NCBI RefSeq assembly: GCF_900115755.1
Contig: NZ_FOXQ01000003.1
Location: 310,001-374,000 of the forward strand
Direction: 5' to 3'
Source: Parafilimonas terrae
GTDB lineage: Bacteria; Bacteroidota; Bacteroidia; Chitinophagales; Chitinophagaceae
Length of the DNA stretch: 64,000 nt
The notes beneath the pieces are model-generated. The model saw nothing but the letters and a program-made list of their open reading frames with translations. It was not told the origin of the DNA and did no database searches. Position 1 is the stretch's first letter; each line of letters begins with the position of its first letter. Positions 27,149 to 41,200 of the stretch are shown here, in pieces. Position numbers and translations under genes: made by a program.

Positions 27149-28846
27149 TCAGGAATTAATAATGCTGATTTTATAATCAGCATTATTTTTTAAACGATCA
27201 ATAAAATCAATACCGGCAAATAAAAAATAGCCGGTATTATTTTTTATATCATATAAATAAACAGGAAGATATAGCTTTTGAAAAGCAGCATCATTAAAAA
27301 TATTTTTCATTGCCTGGTTATCAAAATTGTTTGCATCAATCAATCCAAAATAAACAATGTGTGCTTCATTTAAATCCGTTACAGCCTGGGGCAATAAAAC
27401 ATCCGGCTTCAGTGTATAAAAAATATCCTTATTAAAAGCAGCATGATTTTTTATGCCTTTCCTGTCGCCGGGGCTGTGCCCCATTGCAATATTATTTAAA
27501 CCCATCAGGTCAACTGTTTCACCTTCGTATATAAGGCCAAAGCCTCCTATGGCGATTTTTCCAACAGAAGGCTTAATTGTAAATGTTTTATTGAGGCTCG
27601 TGGCAAGTTGCCTGTCTTGCCTGGCTAATAAAAACTCAAAATTCATTTGTGTTTTTGCAGGCGTTTTTAATTCAGCAAGGTTATTAAGCGCAATAATCAG
27701 TAAAAAAATAATTAGCGTTGCTAAACCTATAGCGCTTATATCTTTATTACTATTCCTGTAAAATTTATAAAGCCATAAAATAACAATAATGCCCCAGGCA
27801 AACAAAGGCAGCAAATGCTGGTAAAACCTAAACCCGCCAAAATGATCTCCGCCCGTTGTACAAGGCAACAAAAATCCAATCCATATTATACCGGTAACAA
27901 TGGCAAACTTCTTTACGATTGAACTATTGGCAAGCGTATCATCTTTCTGTTTAAATAATATTTTTAATTTGAATACTGCATACAATAACATAATTGTCAT
28001 CAGCACAAAAAGAAAACTAATAACCGGCTGGTAACCTGTAATAAAGCTCAATGCATATTTAGCGCCTTCCGTTAAGTTATAAATCCTGTCGGGGGAAATC
28101 TTAGCATAATAAGTATTGGGGAACCTATAGCCGAAATAATGCAGCCTGAACAGGGTGAGGCAAATTTCGACTACAACAAAGCTTACAAAATATAATAAAG
28201 GGAAAAATAATTTTCGCTTGTTTTGAATAAACGTATAAGCCAGTATAACTGTGAAAACAAGGTTCCAGGCCAATGCTTCAGGCCTTATAAGCGAAAGCAG
28301 GCAGCCTGATAATATTAATGCTGATTTCTTTTTAAAAGAAACACTGCCCTGTTCCACCGTTGACAAAACAAGTATAAGCAGCAAGCTAAAGGTAAAATTC
28401 CACAAAGCGTTTTCCATTAAGCTCAATACGCTCCACGCTACAAACGAAGGGCCGATTGTAATGATGAACGCTGTATATATCCAGAAAAAATATTTTGAAA
28501 AAGAAGGATATAATACTGCAACATCTTTATAAATGGCGCGGTAAATATTTGTGAATACAAGGGTGGTAAGTAACAGCGAAAAACAAATGAGCAGCAACTC
28601 AGGGTTTGCAGTAATCAAATATGCACCGGCACATATTATAACCCAGAGAAAAGAAGTGAAGCCTTCAACATGTTCACCATTTGTATTAAAAACAAATCCA
28701 TCGCCGTGTGCCAGGTGATGGGCATAATTCAGAAAAATATTCCCGTCATCTATGCCGGTAATGCCTGCACCTAAATAATAGGAATCAATAAAACTTATAA
28801 TAGAAATAACAACAAGAAAAAAAAGAAATTGTTTTAAAAACTGCAT
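27149..28846 (-). CDS. AftB-like GT-C membrane glycosyltransferase
   Basis: A 565-residue protein with about ten to twelve membrane segments and a periplasmic C-terminus. The first loop reads GIDDGNIFLNYAHHLAHGDG, then VFNTNGEHVEGFTSFLW. The combination DDG, VFN, E-x-VE and T-S...W closely recalls mycobacterial AftB, the terminal arabinofuranosyltransferase that uses decaprenyl-phosphoryl-arabinose. The C-terminal part has DLMGLNNIAMGHSPGD, resembling the DLWGLANMDVA stretch of the protein at 3890-5503. The DPA-type donor operon lies 5 kb away (33608-37333). It may add D-arabinofuranose or a related furanose to the glycan; substrate is inferred. It ends 5 bases from the convergent GT4 gene. 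Confidence 0.72.
   Translation of the reverse strand: MQFLKQFLFFLVVISIISFIDSYYLGAGITGIDDGNIFLNYAHHLAHGDGFVFNTNGEHVEGFTSFLWVIICAGAYLITANPELLLICFSLLLTTLVFTNIYRAIYKDVAVLYPSFSKYFFWIYTAFIITIGPSFVAWSVLSLMENALWNFTFSLLLILVLSTVEQGSVSFKKKSALILSGCLLSLIRPEALAWNLVFTVILAYTFIQNKRKLFFPLLYFVSFVVVEICLTLFRLHYFGYRFPNTYYAKISPDRIYNLTEGAKYALSFITGYQPVISFLFVLMTIMLLYAVFKLKILFKQKDDTLANSSIVKKFAIVTGIIWIGFLLPCTTGGDHFGGFRFYQHLLPLFAWGIIVILWLYKFYRNSNKDISAIGLATLIIFLLIIALNNLAELKTPAKTQMNFEFLLARQDRQLATSLNKTFTIKPSVGKIAIGGFGLIYEGETVDLMGLNNIAMGHSPGDRKGIKNHAAFNKDIFYTLKPDVLLPQAVTDLNEAHIVYFGLIDANNFDNQAMKNIFNDAAFQKLYLPVYLYDIKNNTGYFLFAGIDFIDRLKNNADYKISIINS
27158..27190 (+). terminator. Intrinsic terminator of the plus-strand glycan operon
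   Basis: A perfect 13-bp stem (27158-27170 with 27175-27187), a 4-base loop and a run of T. It lies within the last codons of the convergent minus-strand GT-C gene (the codons for YKISIINS), so coding and terminator functions share the same bases. Confidence 0.8.
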
Positions 28847-29836: not shown

Positions 29837-31195
29837 TTACGATGACAAACTTCTTCCGCGATAAATATTGATGGCATTTATATACATATCCCTGTAAGTA
29901 GAGAAAACATATTTCACCACATTAGAGAATTGTAACTGTATCTCTCTTTTCATAACAAAATACCATATTGTAAACCCAATTCCACCGGCAATTAAGGTAG
30001 CAATAGCTGCGCCATAAAACCCGAAAGATTTTAAACAGATGTAAGAAATAACCAGGTTAATTGCCAGCGAAACCGTGTTAATTACAAAACATAGTGACGG
30101 CTTGCCAACAGAATTAAGCAGGTTAGCTGCCTGGTTCTGCATGGGCCGCATTAAACCTGTAATCATATACAATTGCAGGATGGGTGCAGCCTCAACATAT
30201 TTGGCACCGGCAATTATAGTAATAACAAACTTGGGAAAAATAATAATAAATATAGCCGCAGGCGTGGTAAAAGAAAGCAGTACGCCCACCATTCGCTCAT
30301 AAAGATATTTTATCTTATTGCCGCCATCAGCGTCAGAAGAGGCCTTGGATATTTTTGGAAAAATTATATCGGCCGCAGCATAAGAAGGAATATCAACCAG
30401 GCCATTAATTTTTGAAGCTGTATTATAAAAAGCAACAGCGCTGTTTGATATGAAAGCAGCCGTCATCACCTGGTCAACGTTTGAAAAAATATTTGACATA
30501 ACACCCGATCCAAAAATATAGCCGCCATACCCAAAAATCTTCTTAATAGATTTTTTTTCCGGCCTGAAATTATGATTCAGGTATTTTCTGCTGTATATAT
30601 AAAGAACTATTGACCCGGCCAAAATACTTATTGATAAATAAGCGGCAAGATGTGGCAACAAAAAAGGCTTGCCGGTTAAAAAATGAATAGTCAAACACAG
30701 GAAAAAAAGTACCTGCCTCACCAGGTAACCAACAAGCACTCCTTTAAAATCAAGATGCGATTGCTGTATTGCTTCAAAATGAGAAAAAAATACCATGCAG
30801 ATTAAGCCGGGTATAAACCAATATAAAGTGGCAGTAAGGCCAGCCCCGGCATTAAGTTCGGTACTCATCCAGTCAGAAAAAAAGATAAGAAAAATTATGA
30901 ACAGCAATGTTATTAATACATTAATGAGGAAGGATGATGATGCAATAGATATTTTTTCATTTAAATCTTCACTGCCACTTACGTATTTTATATGAGCATT
31001 TTTCAACAGCCCGCTTTTGGTTGCCTCAAAAACAGAAGTAACTGTTAAAAATAAGGCCCAGGTGCCCATCTCTGCAGTGCTTAATGCACGCGCTAATATT
31101 ATGAAGTTTATCAGCCCGAAAAAAGTGAGTGAAAATCGTTGCAGGATGCTATAAAAACCAGAGCGGATCCAGTAGGAGGAAAAATAACGTTTCAA
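29837..31195 (-). CDS. Wzx-like polysaccharide flippase
   Basis: A 452-residue membrane protein with about twelve to fourteen helices, of the MATE/MviN-like polysaccharide biosynthesis family. The N-terminus reads FFGLINFIILARALSTAEMGTWAL and the middle has KKIFGYGGYIFGSGVMSNIFSNVDQVM, both typical of Wzx proteins. It would move lipid-linked repeat units across the inner membrane for the Wzy-like polymerase. The start is unusual: the frame opens with TTG at 31195, with a stop 16 codons upstream and no ATG until residue 42, which would cut the first helix. Its last five codons run into the repeat-rich spacer. Confidence 0.87.
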   Translation of the reverse strand: MKRYFSSYWIRSGFYSILQRFSLTFFGLINFIILARALSTAEMGTWALFLTVTSVFEATKSGLLKNAHIKYVSGSEDLNEKISIASSSFLINVLITLLFIIFLIFFSDWMSTELNAGAGLTATLYWFIPGLICMVFFSHFEAIQQSHLDFKGVLVGYLVRQVLFFLCLTIHFLTGKPFLLPHLAAYLSISILAGSIVLYIYSRKYLNHNFRPEKKSIKKIFGYGGYIFGSGVMSNIFSNVDQVMTAAFISNSAVAFYNTASKINGLVDIPSYAAADIIFPKISKASSDADGGNKIKYLYERMVGVLLSFTTPAAIFIIIFPKFVITIIAGAKYVEAAPILQLYMITGLMRPMQNQAANLLNSVGKPSLCFVINTVSLAINLVISYICLKSFGFYGAAIATLIAGGIGFTIWYFVMKREIQLQFSNVVKYVFSTYRDMYINAINIYRGRSLSS

Positions 31196-33607: not shown

Positions 33608-34237
33608 TTAATAAGAATACCTTCTGAATGGTTTATAATTTTTTTCTGTGGCCAATGCAATCATTGGAAGGTCATCGGGTGAATCGCCGTAAGCATAAAT
33701 TCTCTTATATGTAGAAAGCTGGAAATTCTTTTTTATGTGTTCTGCTTTCTCTTTGCCAGAACAATTGCGGCCTTCAATTTTACCGGTAAGTTTTCCATCT
33801 TTTACCTGCAGCCTGGTGGCAATGCAGGAGATATTATATTTTGAGCACCAGGGTGCAATCCAGTTTTCTGCCGAAGCAGAAATTACAACAACAGGCGTAT
33901 TATGCTGAAGATGTTTTCTTATTTCAAGCAGCGCACTTTTATTCAGTATTCCAGGTAATTTCTTCTCAGTAAATTCTGCACAAAGCACATTGAACTTTTT
34001 TTCGTCGAAATTTTTTAAGAAATAAGCAAGCAAAATTTCTTTGGCGCTGTGATTTGAAATCAACCCCATTTTATAAGCAATGATTATGGGAGATAAAATA
34101 AGAATACCTGTATAATAGCTGAATTTTCCTTTAATAAATTTCAATACTTCGGCAAGGGAATCTTTCGAAGTGATAGTTCCGTCAAAATCAAAGAAGGCTA
34201 TATCCGTAGTTTGTATTTTTAAATCGTCAGAAATCAT
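33608..34237 (-). CDS. HAD-IB phosphatase, probable phosphoribosyl-lipid 5'-phosphatase
   Basis: A 209-residue HAD-IB phosphatase. Motif I is FFDFDGT with Asp17 and Asp19, motif II is VVVISAS, a Lys lies in SGKEKAEHIKK, and motif IV is YGDSPDD (about 184-189). Residues about 39-55 form a hydrophobic stretch (YTGILILSPIIIAYKMG) often seen in relatives that act on membrane lipids. In other bacteria similar HAD domains occur with or fused to UbiA-type prenyltransferases. Here the gene is last in the operon with UbiA, DprE1 and DprE2, so it likely removes the 5-phosphate from polyprenyl-phosphoryl-5-phosphoribose. It starts inside the DprE2 gene (ATGA overlap). Alternative: a generic sugar phosphatase. 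Confidence 0.75.
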   Translation of the reverse strand: MISDDLKIQTTDIAFFDFDGTITSKDSLAEVLKFIKGKFSYYTGILILSPIIIAYKMGLISNHSAKEILLAYFLKNFDEKKFNVLCAEFTEKKLPGILNKSALLEIRKHLQHNTPVVVISASAENWIAPWCSKYNISCIATRLQVKDGKLTGKIEGRNCSGKEKAEHIKKNFQLSTYKRIYAYGDSPDDLPMIALATEKNYKPFRRYSY

Positions 34238-34965
34238 AAATTCTTTTTCTTAAATATATTTTCAGGAATTGATTTTATAATCATCATTATCCATTTCCAA
34301 AACCATTTTACATAAACAACATTTTGTTTTTTCCCTATGGCTTTTTCCACGGCGGCAGCTACCTGTTCTGTATCAGCTGTAAGCAATGGCGGTAATTTTA
34401 ATTCAGCCGTCATTTTTGTATTTACAAAACCCGGCAAAACACTTACCACATGAACTTTATGTTTATACAGGCGGTTCCTCAGTCCTGATAAGTAAGCCGT
34501 AAAACCAGCCTTTGCGCTGCCATAAATATAATTGCTTTGCCTTCCCCTCTCTCCAGCCACAGAACTTATACCCACAATAGTGCCGCTATTCCGTTCAGCA
34601 AAATCTTCTGCCACAATATTTAAAACAGAAACGGCGCCGGTATAATTGCTATTAATTATCTTCAAACTCTCTTCCCAGTTTTTGCTGGCAGCCAGCGTAT
34701 CGCTCATATAACCAAACACACAAATAACAATATCAGGCTTTGGTGATAAAGACAAATAAAATGATGAATGTGTTGCAAAATCTGTTGCATCAAATTCATA
34801 TATGGCACAGTTTACACCATATCGTATAGAGATATCAGATTGTAAAGCCTGCAAACGCCCTGCATTACGCGCCGCAAGCTGAATATTATTTCCTTTTGCA
34901 GCCATTTTTCGGGCAATGGCTACGGCCATGTCTGATGTGGCTCCTAATATTAAAACTGTTGACAT
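34234..34965 (-). CDS. dprE2: DprE2-like decaprenylphosphoryl-2-keto-ribose reductase
   Basis: A 243-residue short-chain dehydrogenase. The nucleotide-binding site is LILGATSDMAVAIA; catalytic residues are Ser134/135 (VGISSVAGERG), Tyr148 and Lys152 (YIYGSAKAG). Beyond the generic fold, INSNYTGAVSV, AGERGRQSNYIYGS, LPGFVNTKM and the hydrophobic tail WIMMIIKSIPENIFKK match mycobacterial DprE2 as I recall it. DprE2 reduces the 2-keto intermediate to polyprenyl-phosphoryl-beta-D-arabinofuranose. It follows the DprE1 gene by 110 bases and overlaps the phosphatase by 4 bases. Confidence 0.83.
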   Translation of the reverse strand: MSTVLILGATSDMAVAIARKMAAKGNNIQLAARNAGRLQALQSDISIRYGVNCAIYEFDATDFATHSSFYLSLSPKPDIVICVFGYMSDTLAASKNWEESLKIINSNYTGAVSVLNIVAEDFAERNSGTIVGISSVAGERGRQSNYIYGSAKAGFTAYLSGLRNRLYKHKVHVVSVLPGFVNTKMTAELKLPPLLTADTEQVAAAVEKAIGKKQNVVYVKWFWKWIMMIIKSIPENIFKKKNL

Positions 34966-35049
34966 AATAATTTACGCTGTCCGGTTTCTTTTTTATTTAT
35001 CGGCTAATGAATATATGGCATTACAATCTAAGTTGATGCCCTGTATAGT

Positions 35050-35072
35050 AAAGCAGCGAATAAGGCTGCTTT
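35050..35072 (-). repeat. Hairpin between dprE1 and dprE2
   Basis: A perfect 8-bp stem (35050-35057 with 35065-35072, 7-base loop) lies directly after the dprE1-like stop. It has no T-run, so it may trim or stabilise the transcript or weakly terminate it rather than act as a full terminator. Confidence 0.45.
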
Positions 35073-35075
35073 AAA

Positions 35076-36410
35076 TTATGTAGTTAATTCCAACCTGTCT
35101 GATTGAACAGAACGTATTTTATTTGTAGGGTTGTATTTATTTACGATCTTTCTGAACTCACTTAATTTCGGGTAGCCTGCCCTCAACACTTCGGGCTTCA
35201 TGCGTGCATCTTTGCTCATATATAAACGGCCGCCATATTGCAATACAACCTGGTCAAGCTCATCTAAAAATTCAAACAAACCTTTTCGCACAGGAAAATC
35301 AAGCGCCAGCGTATAACCTTCTTTTGGAAAAGAAATGATACTATCCTGCCGGCCAAACACTTTTAACACAGCAAGAAAAGAACCAAGACCCTTATTACTG
35401 ATGCGCTGCAATATTTCTACAAGGCCCTGCTTTGCTTCAAGCGGTAAAACAAACTGGTATTGCACAAAACCTTTTTTACCATAACCACGGTTCCAGTTCA
35501 ATATTGCGTCAAGCGGGTAAAAGAAGGGTTCATAGCTAACTACATTATTAATTTCTTTCTTAAAATTTTTACCGTAGTATAAAAAATTGAAAAGCTTTAC
35601 GGTAAGGCTATTCAGCACCCACGAAGGAAGATTGATGGGAAACGGGATACTTTTTTTAGCAGGAAGTTTTAATGGATCTGATTTTAATTTTTCAGGCAAG
35701 TCTTCCAGTTTTGCATGCTCGCCTAAAATAAGAATGCTCCTGCCAAAATGTTGCCCCTTTTTTAAACAATCAATCCAGGCCACGGAATATGTAGAATGTT
35801 TATATTCTTCAAACAAACGAATAATATCATCGAGGCTTTCAGCCTTTATTTGTTTTTGTTTTATATAAGATGTTTCAATTTTTTTCAGCCTGAATTTAAC
35901 TTTTGTAATTAGACCAGTTAAACCCATGCCGCCACAGGTTGCTTCAAAAAGATCTGCATTTTTTTCGGGAGAGCAAACAATAGTCGAACTATCGGCCAGT
36001 ATTAATTGCATCTCAATAATATGATTGGAAAAAGAGCCGTCAACGTGATGATTTTTTCCATGCACATCACTGCCTACTGCACCGCCAACCGTTATGAATT
36101 TTGTTCCCGGTGTTACAGGAAGAAACCAGCCTTTGGGAACAATTATTTCCAATATTTTATCTAATGTAAGGCCGCTCTGGCACTCCAATATTCCATTCAC
36201 TGTATCAAAAGAAAGCACCTTATCATATTTCAAAGTACTGATGGTTTCTTCCCCAAGCGAAGCATCGCCATAACAACGGCCATTTCCACGCGGGATAAAG
36301 TGAATGCTTTCTTCTACCAACTGTTCCAACTGTTCATCAAAACTAAAACTGCGTTCATTACTTTCTACAACAGGATAATTACCCCAGTTTGCTATGTTCT
36401 TTTGCGCCAT
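35076..36410 (-). CDS. dprE1: DprE1-like decaprenylphosphoryl-ribose 2-oxidase
   Basis: A 444-residue FAD-linked oxidase. The N-terminal FAD domain has PRGNGRCYGDA, PVTPGTKFITVGGAVGSD and VHGKNHHVDGSFSNH (residues 116-130), nearly the same as mycobacterial DprE1. The C-terminal half has ALDFPVRKGL and GGRLYMSKDAR; Lys400 matches the active-site Lys418 of Mycobacterium tuberculosis. At the place of Cys387, the target of benzothiazinones, there is Ala369 (gap-free alignment between the two sites, same offset of 18). The enzyme oxidises the ribose C2 hydroxyl of polyprenyl-phosphoryl-ribose. Its ATG overlaps the UbiA stop (TAATG), so both are made together. Confidence 0.88.
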   Translation of the reverse strand: MAQKNIANWGNYPVVESNERSFSFDEQLEQLVEESIHFIPRGNGRCYGDASLGEETISTLKYDKVLSFDTVNGILECQSGLTLDKILEIIVPKGWFLPVTPGTKFITVGGAVGSDVHGKNHHVDGSFSNHIIEMQLILADSSTIVCSPEKNADLFEATCGGMGLTGLITKVKFRLKKIETSYIKQKQIKAESLDDIIRLFEEYKHSTYSVAWIDCLKKGQHFGRSILILGEHAKLEDLPEKLKSDPLKLPAKKSIPFPINLPSWVLNSLTVKLFNFLYYGKNFKKEINNVVSYEPFFYPLDAILNWNRGYGKKGFVQYQFVLPLEAKQGLVEILQRISNKGLGSFLAVLKVFGRQDSIISFPKEGYTLALDFPVRKGLFEFLDELDQVVLQYGGRLYMSKDARMKPEVLRAGYPKLSEFRKIVNKYNPTNKIRSVQSDRLELTT

Positions 36411-37333
36411 TACTTAAATATTGAAATGTCGGGTAAATAAATTATCAGGTAAAAACTTATGATCCATAACACAAGTGTTATTTGCAAAAACTTGTCTTTA
36501 TATAACAGGTCCGTTGGCGAGCCGCTGTCTTTCTCAATAAATGTTATTTGGAGATAACGCATCAGCCCAACAATAACAAATAAAGATGTATAATAAAGCC
36601 TGTATGTGTTCCAGTGCTGCATTACTTCGGGTGAAATAGTGTACATAATATACGCTATGATGATAATACCGGTAAACAATGAAAGCATGGCATTTAAGAA
36701 TTCGAGATTGTAGCCTTTAATAGCTTTGCGCATATCAAGCCCCGAATCAAGTTTAATTAAAACATCGTCCCTGCGTTTTGCAATTGCCATAAACATGGCA
36801 AGCAAGAACACCATTATCATTAACCATTGTGATATACCAATTACTGCAATTACACCGCCGGCTTTAATCCTCAGCACAAAACCCATTGCCACCAACACTA
36901 TATCAAGCACCGAAATATTTTTGAGGCCAAGGGAATAACCGAGGTTCATTATAAAATACAGCATTAACACAAACAGGAACTTGTCTTTTACAAGCGCTGC
37001 TATTGCAATGCCCAGCACCACGCAGCTTATAAATAATGCAATAGCCGCTTTTTTAGATACGGCGCCGGAAGCGAGCGGCCTTGCGCATTTAACCGGGTGC
37101 TTTTTATCAGCTTCAATATCCATGTAATCATTAATTACATACACCGCGCTGGCAATAAATGAAAAGGCAATAAACCCTGCAAAACACAACAGCAGCTTTT
37201 GCATGTTAAATACTTCGCCCGAAAAAAATAAAGGAAGAAAAATAAAAGAATTCTTAATCCAGTGCTTTGGGCGAAGCAGACTCAGATAATGTGATATGGA
37301 TTTATTATTTGCTATGGAACCTGATGTAACCAT
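36410..37333 (-). CDS. ubiA: UbiA-family polyprenyl-phosphate phosphoribosyltransferase
   Basis: A 307-residue membrane protein with about eight or nine helices. The start is SLLRPKHWIKNSFIFLPLFF, and the first Asp-rich motif is NDYMDIEADKKHPVKCARP (about 68-86), matching the phosphoribosyl-binding enzyme Rv3806c of mycobacteria rather than the quinone-type UbiA (NDxxDxxxD is shared). KRRDDVLIK holds the second acidic motif. It would transfer 5-phosphoribose from PRPP to a polyprenyl phosphate at the inner membrane, the committed step to polyprenyl-phosphoryl-arabinose. It sits 5 bases after the glycosyltransferase gene and overlaps dprE1. The symbol gives the family only; a quinone role is unlikely in this context. 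Confidence 0.85.
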   Translation of the reverse strand: MVTSGSIANNKSISHYLSLLRPKHWIKNSFIFLPLFFSGEVFNMQKLLLCFAGFIAFSFIASAVYVINDYMDIEADKKHPVKCARPLASGAVSKKAAIALFISCVVLGIAIAALVKDKFLFVLMLYFIMNLGYSLGLKNISVLDIVLVAMGFVLRIKAGGVIAVIGISQWLMIMVFLLAMFMAIAKRRDDVLIKLDSGLDMRKAIKGYNLEFLNAMLSLFTGIIIIAYIMYTISPEVMQHWNTYRLYYTSLFVIVGLMRYLQITFIEKDSGSPTDLLYKDKFLQITLVLWIISFYLIIYLPDISIFK

Positions 37334-37338
37334 TATAA

Positions 37339-38583
37339 TCAGCTTAAATATTTATTAATGATAGCGCTTAATTTTTCAACAGATTTTTCCCAGGTATGGG
37401 AGCCTGCAAAAACAATTCTTTCCGTTCTTAATTTATCGTTGTCTTCAGTAAGCGCTTTTTCAATAAGATCGGCGAATTCGGCAGGTGAATCTGAGAGATA
37501 AGTAAATGGTTCAAACATGCGCATGGCTTCTGTTCTCGTTGCCACAACGGCTTTGCCCATCGAGAGATATTCATCAATCTTTAAAGGATAATTGCCTTTA
37601 GTGATTTCATTTTTCACCTGCGGGTTAATGCAAACATCAAAAGCATTTACATAAGCCGGCAACTCCTGTAATTTCTTTCTTCCTAAAAAATGAATATTGC
37701 TGTAGTTGTGCAGCTTCGATTTCAGGAAATTCTCTTCTTCAGGGCCTACCAAGACAATATTTGCGTTAGAATATTGTAGGGCAATAGCTGCAATGATCTC
37801 CTCATCAAGCCTCTCAATATCAAGAACACCGGTATATCCAATAATAGGGTACGGAATATTCTTTAAATCAACGGGCATTTCATACGCAGTATCTGCATTA
37901 AAAAGCCTGGTATTGCAGCCTTGCCCAATATAGTAAGATGATGCGTTGTAACTACTGCAGTAATTAGCGTAATATTCTGAATTGGTAACAACAACATCAG
38001 CCTTTTCAATAAGTTCAGGTTCTAAAGTATCGCAATGTTTTTTCCAGTAATCGTAACCTCTTAAATAATCGCGGCAGTAATAAACATATAAAGAGGGTGA
38101 TAACAACTCTTTAAGGTAATAGCCATTAAAAATATCATTATCGTTAAAGAGTATTATATCCTTAAAACCAAGTTCTTTAATTGCGGATTCTATATCTTTT
38201 GCAAAACGCTTGTTATTAACGTAGTTAATTTTTTTAAAAACGCTTGTTGAAGGCAGCCAGTTGATGGATTCTATAACAGATGCCGGAAAAAACTGCCACA
38301 TATTTTTCTTTATCTTCTCCACTTTATTGCCGCTTTCCTTAACAAGGTCGTAATGCAATTGAACGCCTTCATCTTTAGTTTTTGAAACCCAGGTTTTGCG
38401 GTTCAATGGTTTATTTACATATAAAACCCTGTTATGCTCTGCAAGCCTTGAAGCAATGTCTTTACAATTGCTTCCCACATGGTAATACCATGGCTGTAAG
38501 CCAACAACAACTATGTCTTTTCCTTTCAGGGTAAGAAGGTTTGAGACTTTCTTCTCATTAACTTCCGGATATAAAACTCGCAT
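37339..38583 (-). CDS. GT-B glycosyltransferase (GT1/GT4-like)
   Basis: A 414-residue soluble protein with a GT-B plan. The N-terminal half has DIVVVGLQPWYYHVGSNC and VLYVNKPLNRKTW; the linker reads YPIIGYTGVLDIERLDEEII; the C-terminal half has IVLVGPEEENFL, HFLGRKKLQELPAYV, INPQVKNEITKGNYPLKIDE and SMGKAVVATRTEAM. This layout is common in glycan-locus glycosyltransferases that read as WcaI/GumK-like. It is in the same run as the UbiA-DprE genes (5-base gap) and follows the 2OG oxygenase by 13 bases. Sugar unknown. Confidence 0.8.
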   Translation of the reverse strand: MRVLYPEVNEKKVSNLLTLKGKDIVVVGLQPWYYHVGSNCKDIASRLAEHNRVLYVNKPLNRKTWVSKTKDEGVQLHYDLVKESGNKVEKIKKNMWQFFPASVIESINWLPSTSVFKKINYVNNKRFAKDIESAIKELGFKDIILFNDNDIFNGYYLKELLSPSLYVYYCRDYLRGYDYWKKHCDTLEPELIEKADVVVTNSEYYANYCSSYNASSYYIGQGCNTRLFNADTAYEMPVDLKNIPYPIIGYTGVLDIERLDEEIIAAIALQYSNANIVLVGPEEENFLKSKLHNYSNIHFLGRKKLQELPAYVNAFDVCINPQVKNEITKGNYPLKIDEYLSMGKAVVATRTEAMRMFEPFTYLSDSPAEFADLIEKALTEDNDKLRTERIVFAGSHTWEKSVEKLSAIINKYLS

Positions 38584-38596
38584 TCAATTAAAAGAG

Positions 38597-39412
38597 TTAG
38601 TTTTTTGATTTATTTAACCCCTGTAATAAAATAGGCGGTGTAAACAGCCTAATGGTTTCTTTTAAAGAAGTCATTACACGGGCTTTTTTATCTTCCTTTC
38701 TATATTTGAAAATGGTGTTATGATCGGCATCGCTAACAGCAGCTTCTTCTGCCGGCCTTCCATTTGTATAATAATATAAGGCAAGTGATTTTCTTGATCT
38801 TCCTTCAGGGCATTTTACCACGTTTGGATTGCCATGCCATGAAGTGCTGGTGGTTGAGAACATTGCCATCCTGTTAAATATGGGTAGGATTGATGTACGG
38901 CATTCTTTCATATCAAGGTCCCACAATTCAAACTGGCCGCCATATTCTTCTTTCCAGTCTTCGTTTAAATATACTAACACGTTCAGCCTTCTGTCAAGTT
39001 TTGTTCTTGGATGCTTGTTGAAATCTGCATGTATTTTAAGCATACCGCCCGGTTGAATCTGGTGACAGCCACCGCCATCAAAAAATGGATCGGGGATTAA
39101 ATTTTCAATCCCGGTAAGCGCTGATAAAAATTCAAGGAAGGGCTGGGAATTTAAATAATGCATGAGCTCTCTCGTGGTTTCTCCAAACCTGTACTCACCT
39201 TTTGATGCAAGCTTTATCTGGTTCGCATCATTATATTTAAAGTCTGCATTCTTAGACATGTCAGGAAATTCGCTCAACACTTTCTTTAAAACATCCTCAT
39301 TAAAAAAGTTATCAAAGTAAATACTGGGAAATGGATCTGCTGAAGCATATGCATCCTTATATTGCAATGCAAATGCTTTCAGCTCTTCGGGGGTACGTGA
39401 TGTAAAGTTCAT
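38597..39412 (-). CDS. 2OG-Fe(II) oxygenase
   Basis: A 271-residue oxygenase of the prolyl-4-hydroxylase-like group. The metal triad is visible as H-A-D in GGMLKIHADFNKHP and His in STTSTSWHGNPNVV, with the 2-oxoglutarate-binding Arg in EGRSRKSLALYYYT. The strand RRLNVLVYLNEDW and YGGQFELWD are typical. Such enzymes are frequent in surface-glycan loci, where they may hydroxylate a sugar, lipid or protein carrier; the target here is unknown. It is the first gene of the minus-strand donor operon. Confidence 0.83.
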   Translation of the reverse strand: MNFTSRTPEELKAFALQYKDAYASADPFPSIYFDNFFNEDVLKKVLSEFPDMSKNADFKYNDANQIKLASKGEYRFGETTRELMHYLNSQPFLEFLSALTGIENLIPDPFFDGGGCHQIQPGGMLKIHADFNKHPRTKLDRRLNVLVYLNEDWKEEYGGQFELWDLDMKECRTSILPIFNRMAMFSTTSTSWHGNPNVVKCPEGRSRKSLALYYYTNGRPAEEAAVSDADHNTIFKYRKEDKKARVMTSLKETIRLFTPPILLQGLNKSKN

Positions 39413-39559: not shown

Positions 39560-41200
39560 ATGAAATCCAATCTTTCTATTTCCCAAAACAACTGGCTAAG
39601 GAATTCAGATTTATTCATCATTATTATCTTTTGCTGCGTTCCGCTTTTTATGAGTTTTCCCTATAGGGTAAATATTTTTCTGTCCTGGGAAGGCGCTTAC
39701 AGGTTGTACCTCGGCCAGGTGCCGTACCGTGATTTTGGTTTACCCATGGGATTTGGATATTGGGTGGTGCCGGCCATTTTCTTTAAAGTCTTTGGGCCTT
39801 ATCTTATTTCATTGATAAAAGCACAGGTATTCTTAAATTTTATATGTTGCCTTTCTTTCAGGGGCATACTAAAAAAATTAAAACTTTCAGATGGCGTAAG
39901 AATTGCGGTAATGATTATTTTCTGCCTTTCTTATATACTCCCGAATTTTTGGCCATGGTACAATAACTCTGTTATCATCTGGCAGATAGTGGGCCTGAAT
40001 TTTTTATTAGGTTTTTTAAATACTGAAGCCAGAAAGAAATATGTTTTTTTATTCTTAAGCTGTTTTTTTCTTTTTGTTTCATTTTTCACCAAGCAGGATG
40101 GCGGCTTTTTAGGTTTTGCAATTGCGGCAGCGCTTGTTTTGTATAACACCATCATCACAAAAAAATGGAAAGATATTTTTCTTTTTTTACTGCTTTATAT
40201 AATCATTGCCGTACTGGTAATCTTACCTTTTACACAATACAGTTTCGGCTATTGGTTTAATCATGGCCAGCCGCCGCACACAGCAAGAATTTCTATTTCC
40301 GAGATACTGGGTGAACTTTTTAGCGCTTCACAATGGATTAAATTTTATTTTCTGTTAATCGCTATTATCGTTGCCTTCAAAATAAAAAATAACCGCAGTT
40401 TTTTAACCAACAGGAATGAAATGATTTTCCTGCTGCTTACACTGGGCATTTTAGCGGAAGCATTAATTTTTGGCGTAACAAGTTATACGCCGCCCGATAA
40501 TAATATTTTCTTTCACAGTTTTGCGCTGGCATATATTATTACAGGTTTATCTGGCATTACCTTAATTAATTTCAGCAAGGTTTATTATTTTTTGGGATTG
40601 ACAATATTGATTCTGTTCTGGTGGTCGGCTGGTTACTGGCAATATATTAATAGGATTGCCATGCGCATTTTTCCTTCAGAAACAGTTGAAGCAAAAAATG
40701 ATTCGCTGCCTGCTGAAAATGTGATCAACCGTTACACTTACATGCTTAATCTTGATTCCAATTATTATGAAGATGAAAGCACATGGACAACGATAGATTC
40801 GCTTAAATCATTTCAAAAAATATATTTGCCGCCTTCCACTATTGCAGGCATACAGCGGTTGAAAAAAATGGATGTATTAAAAAACAATAATGCATCCGTT
40901 TTAAATATGACCGAATTAACGCCGCTGGATTATGAGTTTGGTTATAAACTTGAGACCGGCCAGGACCACCCGCTGTGGGACCATCTTGGTGTTTGCATGT
41001 TCAATAAACAATGCGATGATTATTGCAATAAAATTAAAAACAAGCAATATGATGTTGTTTTGTTTGAATACATACCATCACTTAATAATTTCTTCCCTTT
41101 CAGGATAAGAGATTCGCTGCAGGTATATTATAAAAAAACAGATAGTTTTCTTGCTCCCAGAAGGCCAACAAACGGCACGATTGAAGTGTATGTAAAATAG
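39560..41200 (+). CDS. GT-C-like membrane protein of the glycan locus
   Basis: A 546-residue protein with about eleven membrane segments and a C-terminal periplasmic domain of about 170 residues. After the first helix it has SWEGAYRLYLGQVPYRDFGLP; an acidic residue and a (Y/R)-LYxGxxPYxDF pattern after helix 1 is common to GT-C enzymes. It lacks the DD pair of the proteins at 3890 and 27149, with Glu instead. The C-terminal part (QYDVVLFEYIPSLNNFFP) resembles the late soluble domains of those proteins. An upstream ATG at 39555 leads straight to a stop, so 39560 is the start. Likely a membrane glycosyltransferase; function unproven. Confidence 0.6.
   Translation: MKSNLSISQNNWLRNSDLFIIIIFCCVPLFMSFPYRVNIFLSWEGAYRLYLGQVPYRDFGLPMGFGYWVVPAIFFKVFGPYLISLIKAQVFLNFICCLSFRGILKKLKLSDGVRIAVMIIFCLSYILPNFWPWYNNSVIIWQIVGLNFLLGFLNTEARKKYVFLFLSCFFLFVSFFTKQDGGFLGFAIAAALVLYNTIITKKWKDIFLFLLLYIIIAVLVILPFTQYSFGYWFNHGQPPHTARISISEILGELFSASQWIKFYFLLIAIIVAFKIKNNRSFLTNRNEMIFLLLTLGILAEALIFGVTSYTPPDNNIFFHSFALAYIITGLSGITLINFSKVYYFLGLTILILFWWSAGYWQYINRIAMRIFPSETVEAKNDSLPAENVINRYTYMLNLDSNYYEDESTWTTIDSLKSFQKIYLPPSTIAGIQRLKKMDVLKNNNASVLNMTELTPLDYEFGYKLETGQDHPLWDHLGVCMFNKQCDDYCNKIKNKQYDVVLFEYIPSLNNFFPFRIRDSLQVYYKKTDSFLAPRRPTNGTIEVYVK

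Follow-up and report, generated by a model that had tools for sequence, protein, structure and literature searches.

A predicted polyprenyl-phosphoryl-D-arabinofuranose pathway and two candidate arabinofuranosyltransferases in Parafilimonas terrae

Apart from a small number of Gram-negative glycans, D-arabinofuranose (D-Araf) is a sugar known mainly from the walls of mycobacteria. A 64,000-nucleotide stretch of contig NZ_FOXQ01000003.1 from Parafilimonas terrae (Chitinophagaceae, Bacteroidota), hereafter the window, carries a module of four minus-strand genes for a UbiA-type phosphoribosyltransferase, a DprE1-type oxidase, a DprE2-type reductase and a phosphatase of the haloacid dehalogenase (HAD) superfamily. 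It is quite likely that these enzymes supply a D-Araf donor, that the membrane protein GTC39, encoded close by, transfers D-Araf to the cell envelope, and that a second, AftB-like membrane protein, GTC27, adds another D-Araf. All open reading frame (ORF) coordinates below are positions within the window.

Enzymes and gene order of the donor module

In a search of NCBIfam, the UbiA protein was matched best by the decaprenyl-phosphate phosphoribosyltransferase model NF008977 (219.7 bits, 5.6e-65), with the quinone models trailing far behind (32 bits for ubiA_proteo), and its best match in the PDB was Rv3806c (8j8j, 9.4e-36). Counted by hand on the alignment, N68, D69, D72, D76, K27 and K186 correspond to N73, D74, D77, D81, K28 and K191 of Rv3806c, and these six residues were invariant across 25 aligned UbiA sequences. 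The hallmarks of phosphoribosyltransferases of the UbiA fold, namely NDxxDxxxD and the equivalents of K28 and K191, were thus all present, and only Y157 of Rv3806c was replaced, by F152 (likewise hand-counted on the printed alignment). Tyr157 is among three residues contacting the lipid phosphate (PMC10994848). The closest solved relatives hence include Rv3806c and not quinone-type UbiA, in line with the phosphoribosyltransferase identity put forward in an earlier note on this DNA.

DprE1 was also matched best by its own model (NF053785, 438.8 bits, 2.9e-131), compared with 57.6 bits for the best oxidase model other than DprE1, and its PDB match to 4aut (4.7e-88) stood far ahead of the best chain carrying another name (1.9e-11). 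Its nearest relatives are therefore DprE1 structures and models and not sugar-lactone oxidases. Y47, H117, K119, Y310, Q317, Q319, A369 and K400 were identical in 89/89 aligned sequences, the DprE1 tree comprising 89 of 91 sequences after the 80 locus copies described below had been filtered for lengths of 381 to 559 residues; H117 and K400 are taken by us to be the catalytic histidine and lysine. A369 (window positions 35304-35306) is an alanine in all 89 sequences where the mycobacterial stretch has a cysteine, which we equate with the benzothiazinone-binding Cys387. The cysteine of mycobacterial DprE1 bound by benzothiazinones is Cys387 (PMC6128881).

The reductase passed the generic short-chain dehydrogenase/reductase (SDR) model NF005489 with 341.7 bits (cut-off 267), and the HAD protein passed TIGR01490 with 121 bits (cut-off 98.3). 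No match of the HAD protein to NF006088, which we take to be a model for HAD-UbiA fusions, was obtained at E values up to 0.001.

The earlier note had described four minus-strand pathway genes by the motifs RPKHWIKN, NDYMDIEAD, VHGKNHH, Lys400, YGSAK and IPENIFKK, all of which were found in the ORFs, and the four-gene observation is real. The overlaps it described hold for ubiA/dprE1 (TAATG) and dprE2/HAD (ATGA) but not for dprE1 and dprE2, which are separated by a 110-bp gap (34966-35075) containing a 9-bp hairpin; as a whole, this gap folds no better than shuffled versions of itself (z = -0.94). The gap may hold a promoter for dprE2 and the HAD gene, which would agree with the genomes described below whose operon has no dprE1.

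The recurrence of the module was assessed on contigs scanned with the DprE1 of the window, of which the best 80 of 108 confirmed relatives were kept; since the window's own DprE1 served as the query, this set favours close relatives. L001-L003 were excluded from the counts, and several of the 80 loci are cut by contig ends. By their titles, most loci are from Chitinophagaceae, Mucilaginibacter and Cytophagales; two contigs each come from Leptospiraceae and Gammaproteobacteria, and one from Desulfosporosinus. The contiguous order Ubi-E1-E2-HAD was found in 62 loci, which argues that the clustering is not due to chance, and pairwise adjacency was seen in 73 (Ubi/E1), 73 (E1/E2) and 64 (E2/HAD) of them, across many genera. 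In a sample of the phylum, DprE1 was present in 64 of 296 genomes. Supported by family, PDB, residue and gene-order evidence, the route from phosphoribosyl pyrophosphate (PRPP) to polyprenyl-phosphoryl-D-Araf proposed in the earlier note is, on the strength of these sequences, probably real and functional.

Two further observations concern the spread of DprE1. Outside Bacteroidota, copies with 47 to 53% identity occur in Leptospiraceae (L075, L079), Thiomicrorhabdus (L077), Gammaproteobacteria (L082) and Desulfosporosinus (L083), and within the phylum sample DprE1 is frequent in the families f17, f22 and f24, whose genomes measure about 2 to 3.7 Mb.

Candidate transferases accompanying DprE1

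Near dprE1, GTC39 was conspicuous among the remaining window proteins, being present in 53 of the 80 loci; where both genes occur (50 loci), it adjoins ubiA in 38 and lies on the opposite strand in 37. Presence and absence were also scored in a family sample of 117 genomes, using thresholds of 1e-30 for DprE1, 1e-10 for GTC39 and GTC27, 1e-20 for UbiA, 1e-40 for a glycosyltransferase of family GT4 and 1e-10 for a 2-oxoglutarate (2OG)-Fe(II) oxygenase. DprE1 was found in 32 genomes, UbiA in the same 32 plus four others, GTC39 in 30 and GTC27 in seven. All 30 genomes with GTC39 carried DprE1 and none of the 85 DprE1-negative genomes carried GTC39, so that the co-occurrence is without exception on the GTC39 side (Fisher p = 7e-26, uncorrected for kinship). 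The same held for GTC27, with 7/7 genomes DprE1-positive and no GTC27 among the 85 (p = 6.8e-5, likewise uncorrected). GTC39 or GTC27 was present in 31 of the 32 DprE1-positive genomes, the sole exception (G054) being 86% complete, and the complete genome G061, which has DprE1 and lacks GTC39, carries GTC27 instead.

Kinship was taken into account on an rpoB tree, where 14 independent pairs differing in DprE1 could be drawn on supported branches: GTC39 agreed in a mean of 12.8, opposed in 0 and did not differ in 1.2 (median p = 0.00024). This was a quick one-gene tree covering 106 of the 117 genomes, with four rows under 1100 residues. Left off were G086 and G092 (no rpoB match), G012, G016, G033, G043, G057, G059 and G105 (fragmentary), G032 (internal stop) and G090 (an omission), none of these 11 genomes being DprE1-positive.

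GTC39 fits better as a glycosyltransferase of the C superfamily (GT-C) than as a transporter, given the number of its predicted transmembrane (TM) segments, its soluble C-terminal part and a first loop (residues 31-67) that follows the first TM segment and carries the invariant acids E44 and D58. The six alignments made for the protein families (A1 to A6) comprised 39, 25, 25, 15, 10 and 4 sequences.

Two groups of genomes serve as natural experiments. In G028, G029, G077, G084, G103 and G106 the operon consists of GTC39/Ubi-E2-HAD without dprE1, and a stand-alone DprE1 is encoded elsewhere; the co-occurrence of GTC39 with DprE1 is thus independent of linkage. Joined by the additional DprE1 copies from G055 and G085, these make eight stand-alone proteins, which form one side of a branch with a support of 100 in the Shimodaira-Hasegawa-like approximate likelihood ratio test (SH-aLRT), and they retain all eight checked positions. 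These copies (L091, L093, L095, L097, L099, L101, L106 and L107) lie apart from the other pathway genes, replacing the operon copy in six genomes and supplementing it in two.

A different situation was found in the four relatives with UbiA and without DprE1. The locus of G060 (L102) holds, in common with the window, genes for a histidine kinase, a LytTR regulator, a 2OG oxygenase, a GT4 enzyme, Ubi, HAD and a beta-helix protein but lacks dprE1, dprE2 and GTC39, and G035 (L103), G015 (L104) and G066 (L105) have Ubi and HAD without dprE1, dprE2 or GTC39 in the fetched stretch. Elsewhere in these four genomes neither DprE1 nor GTC39 nor GTC27 was found at the thresholds used, DprE2 not having been searched genome-wide. 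They are probable ribofuranose versions of the system, and since relatives having UbiA and HAD without DprE1 also lack GTC39, the latter appears tied to the epimerised sugar and not to ribofuranose.

For GTC27, a profile of four proteins gave one credible PDB match, the arabinofuranosyltransferase AftB (9dlf, E = 2.9e-6). The catalytic D62 of AftB and its donor contacts T91, E172, R221 and T274 (PMC12041299) correspond to D34, T64, E145, R188 and T245, identical at five of five positions and invariant in the four GTC27 proteins, R372 of AftB falling outside the aligned part. Two of the four family members matched the NCBIfam beta-arabinofuranosyltransferase model NF041481 (best 3.1e-10), and no Pfam family was matched by GTC27 or GTC39. 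GTC27 is found in 3/80 dprE1 loci, a relative of it lies within the operon of Algoriphagus aestuarii (L078), between dprE1 and dprE2, and the five phylum-sample genomes with GTC27 matches above 200 bits all have DprE1. From these similarities GTC27 is a candidate AftB-like arabinofuranosyltransferase. The suggestion that two GT-C proteins might use the donor is thereby strengthened, both GTC39 and GTC27 being supported by their co-occurrence with DprE1 and GTC27 also by the match to AftB.

An unclassified membrane protein of ~550 residues, with 8-10 TM segments and a PDFDRD motif, stands beside the HAD gene in five loci lacking GTC39, three of them labelled Mucilaginibacter, and is a candidate third transferase family. 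Profile comparison of GTC39 with GTC27 and with this Mucilaginibacter-type protein gave probabilities of 1.8 and 2.4 per cent, respectively, and so did not demonstrate a relation. In L015 and L021 the module adjoins a membrane protein of 846 residues, apparently YfhO-like, which was set aside.

Among the other neighbours (Table 1), the GT4 gene was present in 29/32 DprE1-positive and 25/85 DprE1-negative family genomes, as well as in all four genomes with UbiA and no DprE1, and on the rpoB tree it had 9.1 pairs for and 0.1 against (median p = 0.004). The 2OG oxygenase was rejected as a core part, having no genome-level tie to DprE1 (6/20, p = 0.48) and 1.9 pairs for versus 2.8 against on the tree. 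The genes of these two proteins are paired, upstream of ubiA or downstream of the HAD gene, in the window (37339-39412) and in L004-L007, L012, L013, L016, L040 and L061. GtrA (PF04138) was considered as a flippase and is present in 115/117 family genomes, so that this search cannot discriminate. A neighbour family with a single scanned member, RecG-like in sequence, recurs in 22/80 loci, and no Emb-type Pfam family was matched among the 20 window proteins scanned.

Table 1. Coordinates and basis of assignment of the module genes, candidate transferases and neighbours (window positions unless a locus is named)
Feature	Position	Strand	Length (residues)	Basis or occurrence
UbiA-superfamily polyprenyl-phosphate 5-phosphoribosyltransferase (PPPRS/DPPRS type)	36410-37333	-	307	NF008977; PDB 8j8j
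DprE1-type FAD oxidase (predicted 2'-oxidation of polyprenyl-P-ribose)	35076-36410	-	444	NF053785; PDB 4aut
DprE2-type short-chain reductase (predicted 2'-keto to arabino)	34234-34965	-	243	NF005489; NF053786; adjoins dprE1
HAD-IB phosphatase (predicted 5-phosphatase of polyprenyl-P-ribose-5-P)	33608-34237	-	209	TIGR01490; role from context
GTC39, GT-C-like membrane protein, best candidate polyprenyl-P-Araf-dependent transferase	39560-41200	+		co-occurrence with DprE1; 11 predicted TM segments
GTC27, AftB-like GT-C, second candidate arabinofuranosyltransferase	27149-28846	-		profile match to 9dlf; donor-site residues
PDFDRD-motif membrane protein	L027:8455-10116, L035:12741-14366, L037:8343-9971, L050:12721-14397, L063:7964-9613			beside HAD gene
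GT4-type glycosyltransferase (TuaH-like), upstream of ubiA, possible accessory	37339-38583	-		16/80 loci
2OG-Fe(II) oxygenase-like protein, local neighbour	38597-39412	-		9/80 loci
Wzx/MATE-superfamily transporter, possible flippase	29837-31195	-		Pfam Polysacc_synt 5.7e-22; 6/80 loci

Sugar, acceptor and alternative readings

In the scheme we propose, the four module enzymes would make a periplasmic sugar donor, a flippase would export the lipid-linked donor, GTC39 would place D-Araf on a glycan or glycoprotein that is a conserved part of the envelope, and a second D-Araf, possibly terminal and beta-linked, would be added in P. terrae by the AftB-like GTC27. We infer all reactions of this scheme, as well as its lipid, its flippase, its acceptor and the activities of the transferases. 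The predicted product is polyprenyl-phosphoryl-D-Araf because both epimerase genes are present. The earlier note had named D-Araf or D-ribofuranose (D-Ribf); for the window D-Araf is favoured on the same ground, and D-Ribf instead fits the four relatives with UbiA and without DprE1. We lean slightly towards an extended form of the scheme, in which GTC39 founds a new GT-C family using polyprenyl-phosphoryl-D-Araf and, with GTC27, decorates a conserved and hitherto undescribed glycan or glycoprotein in the envelope of Chitinophagaceae and relatives, and in which joint loss of DprE1, DprE2 and GTC39 yields a ribofuranose system.

Several points weigh against this interpretation. The right subfamily models led for UbiA and DprE1 in the hidden Markov model searches that the earlier note had suggested, but both proteins stay below the curated NCBIfam cut-offs (234 and 500 bits), and for the reductase the DprE2 model NF053786 came only second (4.1e-58), its 197 bits lying below both the cut-off of 250 and the score of the generic SDR model. 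GTC39, besides its missing Pfam family, has no credible PDB match; among 39 members, hits were scattered over PMT_2 (one, 6.3e-4), GT87 (one, 0.14), TgpA_N (three, best 2.2e-4) and GldL_N (ten, best 0.0062), and look like chance. An in-frame stop lies inside the matched stretch of the GTC39 of G077 and the UbiA of G061. In the phylum sample GTC39 was found in only 7/64 DprE1-positive genomes, all seven genomes with it having DprE1, and misses are possible as the first four or five candidates per genome were scored; GTC39 is therefore lineage-bound, and other lineages must use other transferases. The window's own GTC27, searched alone, matched none of the NCBIfam models, its four pairs for and none against on the rpoB tree (4.0 and 0, median p = 0.125) are too few for significance, and genomes with weaker AftB-like proteins in the phylum sample are DprE1-positive in only 7/23 cases. 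No conserved flippase is tied to the module, the link of the Wzx transporter being weak because of its few loci and GtrA being nearly universal in the family sample. In G060, a methyltransferase gene and an unknown 383-residue gene occupy the place of GTC39, so that more than a simple loss sets this locus apart. Finally, the D-Araf assignment is a prediction from genes.

The acceptor was placed by the earlier note in the neighbouring exopolysaccharide or a glycoprotein, and D-Araf could indeed decorate the exopolysaccharide of the adjoining glycosyltransferase and Wzx genes (about 17-31 kb), given their physical neighbourhood and the close relative L004 (Parafilimonas), which conserves the neighbours beta-helix, Wzx, Branch and GTC27. 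An acceptor solely in this polymer is nonetheless argued against by the 32 of 53 GTC39-bearing loci in which the fetched flank has no homologue of the 18 window genes taken as the glycan locus (some of them unannotated), and by the frequent position of the module outside such a neighbourhood, as in the 22 loci mentioned above with the neighbour family that has a RecG-like member. GTC39 is moreover single-copy in all 30 family genomes, barring two matches split into two pieces, which suggests a conserved acceptor. We therefore regard the exopolysaccharide as a doubtful acceptor, and of the two proteins it may be GTC27, not GTC39, that acts on this polymer. It is also conceivable, if unlikely, that the pathway makes polyprenyl-phosphoryl-D-Araf, that another GT-C uses the donor and that GTC39 has a partner role in the membrane, for example as a flippase or scaffold. 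The missing glycosyltransferase family of GTC39, the flippase as the one step with no conserved candidate, and the DprE1-positive lineages that manage without GTC39 would suit such a role; the 11 TM segments, the acidic first loop and the soluble C-terminal part suit a GT-C better than a transporter (orientation was not predicted), and the presence of GTC27 in G061 is as expected if GTC39 and GTC27 are alternative transferases.

The epimerase pair might instead act on another lipid-linked pentose or stop elsewhere, leaving D-Ribf, a keto sugar or a different pentofuranose as the final sugar. The sub-threshold scores of UbiA, DprE1 and DprE2, the first enzymes shared with ribofuranose systems (PMC11127046) and the four relatives with UbiA and HAD but no DprE1 are compatible with this. 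We hold it to be improbable in view of the identity of all checked DprE1 positions in 89/89 sequences, the adjacency of dprE2 to dprE1 in 73/80 loci, the six genomes that keep dprE2 in the operon and draw DprE1 from a separate paralogue, and the association of Araf-containing glycans with DprE1/DprE2 homologues (Kelly et al., PMC11127046). That a quinone-type UbiA and sugar-lactone oxidases in unrelated roles have become neighbours by chance has hardly any likelihood: they share the superfamilies (Pfam UbiA and FAD_binding_4), but the family and PDB rankings given above rule out both identities, and the module recurs in many genera.

Comparison with known systems

The pathway is already known outside mycobacteria (Kelly et al. 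2024, PMC11127046), and what is new here is its reach in Bacteroidota, the candidate transferases and the natural loss, with the reservation that Fig. S11 of the supporting information of that paper (further candidate systems) may include Bacteroidota. Among the matches listed in open-licence PMC text, no report of D-Araf or of decaprenyl-phosphoryl-arabinose (DPA) in Chitinophagaceae or Bacteroidota was found, which is weak evidence of absence, and the passages searched in a review of marine Gram-negative glycans (PMC3210612) have no mention of Araf. If the scheme is true, known structures underestimate how widespread D-Araf is in nature, the module being present in 32/117 family genomes and DprE1 in 64/296 phylum genomes. 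The sugar can now be sought in the envelope of the Chitinophagaceae group, with two membrane proteins as likely users and with natural controls in the relatives that lack the epimerase genes, and the AftB-like and unclassified transferases from non-mycobacterial hosts are possible model enzymes.

What the module has in common with the DPA pathway of mycobacteria and corynebacteria is a phosphoribosyltransferase and a DprE1 that are homologous and retain the residues checked, together with a putative DprE2 homologue. It differs from the mycobacterial pathway in having a HAD-IB phosphatase in place of the unrelated Rv3807c, in the gathering of its genes into one tight cluster, in the alanine of DprE1 opposite the presumed Cys387 and in the lack of an Emb-type Pfam match among the scanned window proteins. 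The transferase of pilin arabinosylation in Pseudomonas aeruginosa is reportedly named TfpW. A polyprenyl-P-Araf donor has been proposed for that process (as cited in PMC11127046), which makes it a possible Gram-negative parallel. GTC27 is like the terminal beta-(1->2)-arabinofuranosyltransferase AftB (PMC12041299) in its profile match, its DD motif and four further identical donor-site residues, and unlike it in that the similarity is remote and the NCBIfam model does not recognise the window protein.

The framing of the pathway as mycobacterial, with a relative in Pseudomonas, is incomplete, as Kelly et al. have described general three-component pentofuranose systems in Gram-negatives, including Citrobacter youngae O1 and O2 with the transferase family GT136, in which a HAD-type phosphatase domain performs the phosphatase step (PMC11127046). 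Their PRPP-dependent synthase type and HAD-type phosphatase are both found, as predicted activities, in one module here. As in these systems, a PRPP-dependent UbiA-type synthase and a HAD phosphatase would be followed by pentose-changing epimerases and a GT-C user, the donor being made inside and used outside. In P. terrae, by contrast, separate genes encode HAD and UbiA, the module appears to lack a regularly linked flippase of the MATE family, and the users would be GTC39, which has no known family, and the AftB-like GTC27. Unlike the systems of Kelly et al., the P. terrae-type module recurs across a family of genomes.

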